Source: a virus. From it: a stretch of 23,633 nucleotides of DNA. The stretch covers positions 1-23,633 of IMG/VR virus record IMGVR_UViG_3300034073_000805. The stretch is one strand, 5' to 3'. The notes under the pieces were generated by a model, which was not told the origin of the DNA, made no database searches, and saw only the letters and a program-made list of their open reading frames with translations. This document shows, piece after piece, positions 18,085 through 22,585 of this stretch (within the stretch, counting starts at the first letter, position 1; every line of letters starts with the position of its first letter). A program made the position numbers and the translations under genes.

Positions 18085-18729
18085 TTATGGAGGTGTAGGC
18101 CGGGGGTCCGGCAAGGGAGATATGAAGTTTACCGCCATAACACTTGACGGTATACCGGGATGAGGTGATGTTGCCGCCTCTGCATCTAACCGCACATTAG
18201 TATCTGTTGTTGCTATTTCTAACTCAAGATATTCACCGGCAGCAAGATCAATATTAAAGTTCCAACTAACTTCCATATATTCATTATTAGAAGATAATGT
18301 ATACGCATGGGTCGAATAACCAATGTTTATACCGTTTCTTTTAATCCAGATATATACGTTTTTTGCACTGGAATTAGTACTTAATAACTGACCAGAATAC
18401 TGGAAGTTATATATGCCATCGATCGTAACTTCTATTCTTGATGTACTTCCTGACTGTAAAGCCACCGCATTATTTAAATAAGTGGCATTAAATACAACCG
18501 GATAAGCAGTACCGGTTGCAGCAAATGTCTGGTCTACAGTATTAAAAAATAATCCATTCGGGCAATCAACGTACTGTCCACCATTTGGTCCTAATAAATA
18601 CTGCGTGGCATGGCTCAACCGATTAAAGTACAAACGCAGGACGTTATTAAGCTGCTCCTGATATTGAGGATTCCATTCCTGCGGTGCGTATGGCAGGTTA
18701 GGCGGCTGAGGACTATCTAGGTATCTCAT
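18085..18729 (-). CDS. C1q/TNF-like jelly-roll virion protein
   Basis: A 214-residue protein. Residues about 100-205 (TIDGIYNFQYSGQLLSTNSS, KNVYIWIKRNGINIGYSTHA, EYMEVSWNFNIDLAAGEYLE, LEIATTDTNVRL) follow the beta-strand order of the C1q/TNF-like jelly roll found in many T7-like cyanophage and freshwater phage virion proteins, including the 'W-R-NG--I' and 'L--GDYL-L' signatures. The N-terminal 60 residues (NPQYQEQLNNVLRLYFNRLS) are a helical attachment part. It probably trimerises on the tail or capsid surface. It overlaps the upstream tail gene by ATGA and is followed after 11 bases by the 341-residue gene. Confidence 0.75.
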   Translation of the reverse strand: MRYLDSPQPPNLPYAPQEWNPQYQEQLNNVLRLYFNRLSHATQYLLGPNGGQYVDCPNGLFFNTVDQTFAATGTAYPVVFNATYLNNAVALQSGSTSRIEVTIDGIYNFQYSGQLLSTNSSAKNVYIWIKRNGINIGYSTHAYTLSSNNEYMEVSWNFNIDLAAGEYLELEIATTDTNVRLDAEAATSPHPGIPSSVMAVNFISPLPDPRPTPP

Positions 18730-20876: not shown

Positions 20877-21458
20877 TCACCTCATTAAGGCAGCTTCAGC
20901 AGCACGTCGGCGCGTGAGGCCAGGAAGGACTCGACCCGATGCCTTATTCCATAACAAGCACTGATCGGCTGCACCATCCCAATCTCCCGCATCAATACGC
21001 TTTTTAAACGTGGAAACCCGATAGTTCCCTAGGCCACAATTGTAGACCCAGCTAGTCACAGCGGCAATGCGCCTTGGTAGTGCAGTTTGAATCTTGGGTG
21101 AAAGCTTTACCAGACCTCGGACAAAATACTCCACATGATGGTCCAAGGCGTCTTCGCACTGCTCCATTGTCCAGATGGTGCCGGGATTAATGTCTGGTCC
21201 GGTGGCTCCCCAACCGATTGTCCAGGGATGTCCTCTGGTTCCGGGGTCGGGATAGGCTTGGACTCGTCCGTCAGGCAGGCGTCTTGCTAAACCTTCAAAG
21301 GGTTTGATCAGATGCTCCTTGGCTATCTGCTTCGCGGCGTCCAAGGAGTTCAAGGATTCTTCTGTTTTGCTCGGCAATGATTCGTCGCTGCTCTTCAATG
21401 AACCGTAATTGCGCCTCAACATCTGCACGTATTCTGACAAGTTCAATGAATTGCTCAT
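20877..21458 (-). CDS. Endolysin, GH24 phage lysozyme
   Basis: A 193-residue frame. The catalytic Glu-Asp-Thr set of GH24 is present in IKPFEGLARR (E55), AYPDPGTRG (D71) and PWTIGWGAT (T80), with an insertion PDGRV between the Glu and Asp. SWVYNCGLGNYRVSTF and the final GRVLPGLTRRRAAEAALM are typical of the helical lobe. It hydrolyses the glycan strands of peptidoglycan after the holin opens the membrane; no signal or SAR segment is seen. The ATG at 21458 has a poor ribosome binding site and adds about 50 residues before the domain, overlapping a second credible frame (21295-21465). The true start may be an internal ATG or TTG between 21458 and about 21340. That ambiguity affects only the N-terminus. 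Confidence 0.85.
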   Translation of the reverse strand: MSNSLNLSEYVQMLRRNYGSLKSSDESLPSKTEESLNSLDAAKQIAKEHLIKPFEGLARRLPDGRVQAYPDPGTRGHPWTIGWGATGPDINPGTIWTMEQCEDALDHHVEYFVRGLVKLSPKIQTALPRRIAAVTSWVYNCGLGNYRVSTFKKRIDAGDWDGAADQCLLWNKASGRVLPGLTRRRAAEAALMR

Positions 21459-21465
21459 GGTTCAT
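21295..21465 (-). CDS. Nested 56-residue coiled-coil protein in the lysis cassette
   Basis: The frame begins MNHEQFIELVRIRADVEAQL and continues RFIEEQRRIIAEQNRRILEL, then LGRREADSQGASDQTL. It is an almost continuous amphipathic, highly charged helix with hydrophobic spacing suited to a coiled coil. Its ATG (21463-21465) overlaps the holin stop as ATGA, the coupling used across this genome, whereas the endolysin ATG lies 7 bases further on in another frame. Nearly all of it overlaps the N-terminal extension of the endolysin. There is no membrane segment, so it is not a classical inner-membrane spanin; it might act as a lysis accessory or be packaged. Its function is unknown and its expression is not proven. 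Confidence 0.6.
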   Translation of the reverse strand: MNHEQFIELVRIRADVEAQLRFIEEQRRIIAEQNRRILELLGRREADSQGASDQTL

Positions 21466-21947
21466 GTCTTACGGTATTTTTCTAAGCTTCTTGAAACAAA
21501 CCAGTACGTAAGTACCATCGTGAACAGACCAAAATCGTCCTCGTCCCAGCACTTGGTTACAACTTCAGTCCATGCCGCACCCGTCTGAAATGCCATAACA
21601 ATCGCAGCCGCCTTGACTGACGCATACATAAAGAAGAGACACCAAGTGATGCCCGGACGAACCAGCGCCGAGATAGCAGCCACCATTGGGCCCGCTGCTT
21701 TAGCCGTTTCAGCCTGCTCTTGAAACGCGCTTTTGATGGTATCCAGTTGTTGAACCGAGTAGTCAACATACTTTTCCTCCACCTTAAATTCGCCACGCAG
21801 CTTCTCTAGGTCGGTCTGCAACCGGAACATGGACAGCTCATGCTGCCGCTCGTTCTTCTTATCAAGGAATTTAAGGATCTCTGGGGCGATACGAAAAATA
21901 CCGCCAACCACCGATCCCAATAAGCCACCTGATAGAAGATCAAACAT
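21462..21947 (-). CDS. Holin of the 3-TM type (GTA_holin_3TM-like)
   Basis: A 161-residue protein. A hydrophobic N-terminus (LLSGGLLGSVVGGIFRI, residues about 4-20) is followed by a long charged helix (about 30-85, ERQHELSMFRLQTDLEKLRG) and two membrane segments: about 93-120 (SALVRPGITWCLFFMYASVK, AAAIVMAF) and about 138-155 (FGLFTMVLTYWFVSRSL). The 'LVRPGITW' stretch before the second span is typical of the three-segment holins of gene transfer agents and related phages. It forms lesions in the inner membrane to release the endolysin encoded just after it. The start lies two bases after the stop of the lipoprotein gene. Confidence 0.82.
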   Translation of the reverse strand: MFDLLSGGLLGSVVGGIFRIAPEILKFLDKKNERQHELSMFRLQTDLEKLRGEFKVEEKYVDYSVQQLDTIKSAFQEQAETAKAAGPMVAAISALVRPGITWCLFFMYASVKAAAIVMAFQTGAAWTEVVTKCWDEDDFGLFTMVLTYWFVSRSLEKYRKT

Positions 21948-21949
21948 GA

Positions 21950-22585
21950 TTACTGAGGCGCGGCAGGATTGATGACCACCGGATTAACCACTTCAGGTCG
22001 CACCACAGTTGGGTTGACAATTACAGGCTTCTCGGTAGTGATCACTTTAGGATCAAGCACAACAGCTTTTTCAGTCGTGACAACTGTTGGTGTATGGGTG
22101 TTATCGGTTGTAGTAGTGGTTGTCGTGGTTATGTTTGCTGCTGGCGCTTGGATCTTGCCAGCGATACTCGCAAAGGTGTCATTGGTACTTCTTGCAGTCA
22201 TAACTGACGCATTGCTTACCGTCTGCTGTATGGCTACGTTACCCCTAACCTGCTCAATACCTAACGCGACTTGTCTGTTTATGCCGTATATCTGAGCAAT
22301 CGACGGGAGAATGGTTGCAATCGCTTGCAGGGTCGTCTCGCCTGCTGATTTTGGCGGTGCGATCTGTTGCTGTGGTTGGTTAGGTTGCCCAAGCGCCATG
22401 CTCATAACGGCAGCGACTTTGGCCGCAGCATCACCTGTAGATGCAATTGCTGCCATTGCTTTGTACTTTTCACTCTCAGCTTGTGCGCGAGCTTGAGCAA
22501 TCTTTACATTAGCCTCGGCATAACCATCGTAATTTGTAGCGCAGCTTGCGAGAAGCAGGGGTGTAATCAGTAAGAGCTTTTTCAT
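21950..22585 (-). CDS. Phage lipoprotein beside the holin, possible spanin analogue
   Basis: A 211-residue protein with a signal peptide and lipobox at the N-terminus (MKKLLLITPLLLASCATNYD, Cys15); Ala at +2 predicts outer-membrane delivery. The mature part has an Ala/Lys-rich helix (VKIAQARAQAESEKYKAMAA), a Pro/Gln linker, a helix around QIYGINRQVALGIEQVRGN, a run of threonines near residue 160 and a Pro/Val-rich C-terminus (VVRPEVVNPVVINPAAPQ). It sits immediately upstream of the holin, where outer-membrane spanin subunits are often found, but it is about twice the length of typical ones, and no inner-membrane spanin partner is seen. A virion or exclusion role is also possible. Confidence 0.7.
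   Translation of the reverse strand: MKKLLLITPLLLASCATNYDGYAEANVKIAQARAQAESEKYKAMAAIASTGDAAAKVAAVMSMALGQPNQPQQQIAPPKSAGETTLQAIATILPSIAQIYGINRQVALGIEQVRGNVAIQQTVSNASVMTARSTNDTFASIAGKIQAPAANITTTTTTTTDNTHTPTVVTTEKAVVLDPKVITTEKPVIVNPTVVRPEVVNPVVINPAAPQ

Follow-up and report, generated by a model that had tools for sequence, protein, structure and literature searches.

Lysis genes coded out of frame and accessory genes coupled to an endolysin are both already known. In the staphylococcal phage Twort, the lysis protein holTW, a membrane holin, is coded out of frame within the endolysin gene. In phage lambda, Rz1 likewise uses the +1 frame of a second lysis gene, Rz, in which it is embedded (PMC6139136); the former encodes a lipoprotein and the latter an inner-membrane protein. 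Mycobacteriophage Ms6 carries a gene for the chaperone-like Gp1, which is coupled to lysA by a GTGA overlap, and HNH genes intrude at this gp1-lysA junction in Ms6-related phages (PMC3111421, PMC6116114); experiments have established both what Gp1 does and that it binds the N-terminus of LysA. Termination-reinitiation at ATGA, in which a stop codon overlaps the next start, has also been described (PMC6728339, PMC10666635). The locus presented here brings an out-of-frame lysis gene and a coupled accessory-endolysin pair together, and this pairing is a novel variation on these known kinds.

The window analyzed is a stretch of viral DNA of 23,633 nucleotides (IMG/VR record IMGVR_UViG_3300034073_000805), with a lysis cassette on the minus strand. 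A gene encoding a holin-like membrane protein of 161 amino acids (21462..21947, minus strand) displays hydrophobic segments, matches PHROG 6637 at 1.9e-26 and PHROG 3427 (holin) at 2e-4, and precedes the endolysin in almost every relative whose upstream sequence is long enough. Its TGA stop lies within an ATGA whose ATG opens a 56-codon ORF ending at a TGA, hereafter p56 (21465-21295, minus strand); the coordinates confirm the assignment of this overlap to the 56-codon frame that had been made in an earlier note on this DNA. The endolysin ORF (21458-20877, minus strand) begins at an ATG located 7 nt downstream of the p56 ATG and 3 nt past the holin stop. This tandem start site (21456..21465, minus strand) reads ATGAACCATG in the window and GTGAATCATG or GTGAACTATG in more distant members of the p56 clade. 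The two ORFs overlap by 164 nt. From ATG 21458, the endolysin frame first runs through an N-terminal extension of 38 codons (21345..21458, minus strand), which overprints p56 in the +1 frame and includes the peptide sequence MSNSLNLSEYVQM, and then through the endolysin proper (20877..21344, minus strand), a GH24 lysozyme as judged from the PF00959 (Phage_lysozyme) match over residues 65-188 (E 1.5e-29); the F-E-G and T-I-G regions are invariant in the endolysin alignment. Within p56, residues 1-40 (MNHEQFIELVRIRADVEAQLRFIEEQRRIIAEQNRRILEL; 21345..21465, minus strand) precede a tail of 16 residues plus the stop codon (21295..21344, minus strand), which covers the former 5' end of the endolysin gene but reads it in the other frame.

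By analogy, Ms6 Gp1 is the closest working precedent for p56. In both cases the endolysin gene is immediately preceded by a small accessory gene that overlaps it in another frame, at a junction where HNH genes intrude in related phages. However, the Ms6 overlap is of 4 nt only and the Ms6 enzyme is an unrelated amidase; searches of phage records, PHROG and Pfam with p56 gave no evidence of kinship with Gp1 (mycobacteriophage Pham1480). In contrast to the lambda pair, neither p56 nor the endolysin has the features of a lipoprotein or an inner-membrane protein, and unlike holTW, p56 is soluble and located at the 5' end of the endolysin gene. The locus also differs from known ATGA overlaps in that two starts in two frames seemingly share one stop.

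The best 80 of 501 endolysin relatives in IMG/VR were kept for comparison. In 51 of these 80, the holin stop is directly followed by the endolysin start with no extension, mostly as GTGA or ATGA and sometimes as TAATG, and the product begins with M/V-NEAKKLCKDVLIKPFEG at the old start position. Eleven others contain p56. A different ORF of 60 amino acids, with a transmembrane segment and a helical tail, separates holin and endolysin in six, other inserts, an HNH endonuclease among them, are found at the junction in nine, and the remaining three are truncated. The stops of these other inserts overlap the endolysin start, so that coupling is preserved; given several kinds of insert at one junction, the holin/endolysin boundary is a hot spot for insertion, p56 being just one of the kinds present. 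The 60-amino-acid ORF (L019:2312-2494, MEALIDSLARVWFLGVALVGVAVYAVTIKTRLDYLEKDHDRQ...; likewise in L025, L028, L039, L052 and L057) combines an N-terminal transmembrane segment with a charged helical tail, its end crosses the endolysin GTG, and it matched nothing in Pfam and nothing significantly in PHROG; from its sequence it could be called i-spanin-like in outline. The HNH endonuclease, of 153 amino acids, is in L053 (2543-3004; PF13392, 2e-13). Inserts of this group are also in L027, L029, L032, L038, L045, L049, L069 and L073, L029 and others having a 188-amino-acid zinc-ribbon-like protein without clear family.

The distribution of p56 is narrow. Three viral scans, using the single protein, the alignment or a distant member, all recovered the same 11 contigs, from uncultured phages, which form a clade of only about three well-separated lineages. 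Nothing was found in GTDB contigs, nor at other positions of 13 related phage contigs that lack p56, no tblastn match was obtained at E up to 1 among 50,697 phage records, and there was no match in PHROG or Pfam. Searching the PDB with a p56 profile returned weak matches only (E above 0.02), mainly to short designed helices, which are uninformative. No homologue with known function was thus recovered.

To compare selection in the two frames, as had been proposed in the earlier note, each change was classed by its effect both in frame A (p56) and in frame B (endolysin, A+1). Over the 38 codons between ATG 21458 and the old endolysin start, p56 had an omega of 0.19-0.20 and the extension one of 0.7-0.79, these values being simple pairwise counts from non-independent pairs. 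In control windows taken from holin and endolysin, which overlap one another, true frames gave 0.11-0.48 and sham +1 frames 0.44-2.27. The p56 value falls inside the range of true genes and below every sham frame, and the extension is indistinguishable from sham frames. Variable columns at p56 codon positions 3, 1 and 2 numbered 25, 12 and 7 (44 in total; p = 0.001 for position 3). The low omega and the excess at third positions indicate that p56 is a protein-coding gene, a genuine one over its first ~40 codons. In the next 47 nt, the p56 frame gave an omega of 1.23, as in non-coding sham frames, and it is the endolysin frame which is conserved there. The switch of constraint from one frame to the other occurs at the ancestral endolysin start; from this reversal, the last ~16 residues of p56 are an unselected by-product. 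The nested small gene that had been suspected in this cassette thus shows purifying selection across 11 further contigs, without its tail.

The end of p56 is to be read in the same way. Its TGA lies in the TTT-GAR of the conserved F-E codons of the endolysin (KPFEG), and its coincidence with the start of the GH24 domain had been remarked on in the earlier note. The position is correct but incidental, TTTGA being common at the F-E codons also where p56 is absent (56 of 69 such relatives). Loci combining a stopped p56 frame with an intact extension were absent from the best 80 of 501 relatives, which have both frames (11 contigs) or neither.

No selection is detectable on the amino-acid sequence of the extension, as estimated from these alignments. 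Nor does p56 show a clear deficit of synonymous change, its value ranking at the 13th percentile of the control windows, so that the sequences by themselves are no proof that the extension is translated. Nevertheless, all full-length members of the p56 clade retain ATG 21458 and the open extension frame, including L035, where the ATG has survived a change of the surrounding codons (CAT-GAG there became TAT-GAT). With the p56 protein and the codon usage of the phage taken as fixed, an open frame with this ATG is expected by chance at 0.02-0.07 per sequence and its retention in three lineages at 0.07-0.11, or about 0.01 when combined with its origin. The lack of a good ribosome binding site at this ATG was confirmed (Shine-Dalgarno match of -0.2 kcal/mol, near absent), with none either at the p56 ATG (+0.2). 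Yet the endolysin starts of unextended relatives range from -3.4 to +0.5, so a weak Shine-Dalgarno is normal for these endolysins. Predicted mRNA structure at the starts gave no signal (z = 0.95). Experiments in E. coli and Haloferax found reinitiation to be strong only near the stop, and in E. coli it occurs over short distances but is lost at around 20-40 nt (PMC10666635). This requirement for a nearby stop favours ATG 21458, 3 nt away, over a TTG more than 100 nt away.

This TTG, at 21344-21342, occupies the place where relatives start with GTG or ATG, and an endolysin initiated there, or at another TTG within p56, would leave p56 real and the extension untranslated and open by chance. Such an internal start, the chief rival reading but one we regard as rather unlikely, would agree with the lack of selection on the extension, with an endolysin-frame constraint that begins at the TTG position and with the conservation of the TTG in most clade members. 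However, L009 and L010 have TTA instead, a synonymous Leu change by which a start at the old position is ruled out for these two members. In addition, most members lack a Shine-Dalgarno there, no stop codon is near for coupling, and an open frame with its ATG in all lineages would be fortuitous at a chance of ~0.01 or less. Between the two options of the earlier note, an internal start or an extension dictated by the other frame, the second is thus the most likely, and the endolysin probably carries an N-terminal extension whose sequence, to judge from the substitutions, follows the p56 frame. AlphaFold2 predicted this extension to be mostly disordered, with residues 1-5 and 18-35 under pLDDT 50; disorder is what one expects of overprinted sequences (Rancurel et al., as cited in PMC6139136).

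With moderate confidence, we therefore favour a model joining an inserted p56, reinitiation at two starts and an N-extended endolysin. In the ancestor of the phage group, a segment of ~120 nt would have been inserted between holin and endolysin, placing p56, with its functional core of ~40 codons, on the coupled ATGA/GTGA start once serving the endolysin. The endolysin, now in the +1 frame, would have shifted its start to the ATG three nt past the holin stop, and the enzyme would have gained an extension of ~38 disordered residues, merely the other reading of p56. The holin stop probably feeds both downstream starts. Ribosomes finishing the holin would restart at one of two starts 7 nt apart, in which case one stop codon would set the ratio of the two products. 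Actual translation, the endolysin N-terminus and the function of p56 are all parts of the model that we infer. If it holds, an inserted gene would have seized a coupled start site and shifted the old gene into another frame, an essential enzyme thereby acquiring a new disordered N-terminus. In any case, with p56 the phage lysis cassettes gain a gene family that had gone unannotated, and gene callers barring long overlaps would lose either the p56 or the endolysin call.

AlphaFold2 modelled p56 as a single continuous helix spanning residues 3-54, with a mean pLDDT of 91. A heptad-like pattern can be followed along V16, L20, I23, I30, I37 and L41, but shuffling gave p = 0.16 for heptad periodicity in the window peptide (p = 0.04 in the L035 version), so that the strong coiled coil claimed for it is plausible rather than demonstrated. 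The peptide has no transmembrane segment and no lipobox, its maximal 19-residue hydropathy being 0.41. It therefore possesses neither the inner-membrane segment or lipoprotein signal expected of a spanin, a role for which no support was found, nor the at least one transmembrane segment expected of a holin or antiholin. On this model, p56 might be a helical protein that is soluble and elongated, most probably assembles into an oligomeric coiled coil and serves lysis in an accessory capacity; its partner might be the helical middle region of the holin or the endolysin. A soluble holin regulator is one possible role. We tentatively suggest, giving this somewhat less than an even chance, that the holin stop splits ribosomes between two frames so that the amounts of p56 (as a soluble lysis regulator), endolysin and holin are locked together. 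A role for p56 like that of Ms6 Gp1 towards LysA, in which it would bind the extended endolysin and help its export or stability, would be compatible with the favoured model; p56 is small and immediately ahead of the endolysin, the endolysin region concerned is absent from relatives, and coupled neighbours are enriched for complex subunits (PMC10666635). This analogy appears doubtful, since the extension sequence is not conserved as a binding site would be, p56 is unmatched among phage records, and a GH24 enzyme presumably exits via the holin.

The codon-position pattern also bears on a locus making only the extended endolysin, with a fortuitous 56-codon frame. In L008-L010 and L035 the small frame indeed opens with GTG, a weaker start codon than the endolysin ATG, but substitutions in the first 38 codons follow the p56 frame, and this already contradicts such a reading, which we consider highly improbable. 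Scarcely credible is a p56-endolysin fusion produced by +1 frameshifting at the p56 end, for although most members have CTT TGA A there (cf. the prfB site) and the +1 frame runs into EGLARR, which we take to lie just ahead of the likely catalytic Glu of GH24, the codon preceding TGA varies (CTT, TTT, GTT), TTTGA is usual in relatives without p56, the fusion would drop the first lysozyme helix, and the endolysin frame has its own ATG.

Among close members, divergence is much lower within the module than in the flanking sequence (e.g. about 1% vs about 20% for W-L003). Synonymous-site suppression was rejected as a proof of dual coding, recombination accounting equally for this low divergence. 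The holin, p56 and endolysin blocks are related differently among L003, L008, L009 and L010, which indicates recombination at the cassette boundaries, and the low divergence is at least partly due to it. As the module is exchanged between phages, synonymous-rate tests are unreliable here. The holin end is common to L008 and L010, and p56 is identical in L009 and L010.

Two further genes of the window deserve mention. On the 5' side of the holin, a lipoprotein-like gene (21950..22585, minus strand; 211 amino acids) shows an LLASC lipobox and a C-terminus rich in Pro and Val, falls into no Pfam family, matches PHROG only weakly, and has a detectable homologue only in L008 among the best 80 of 501 endolysin relatives; its product is a possible outer-membrane spanin component. 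Adjoining a large virion structural protein, a small protein encoded at 18085-18729 (minus strand) has a weak C1q-like match (0.0035, under the Pfam cut-off) and is possibly a receptor-binding domain.
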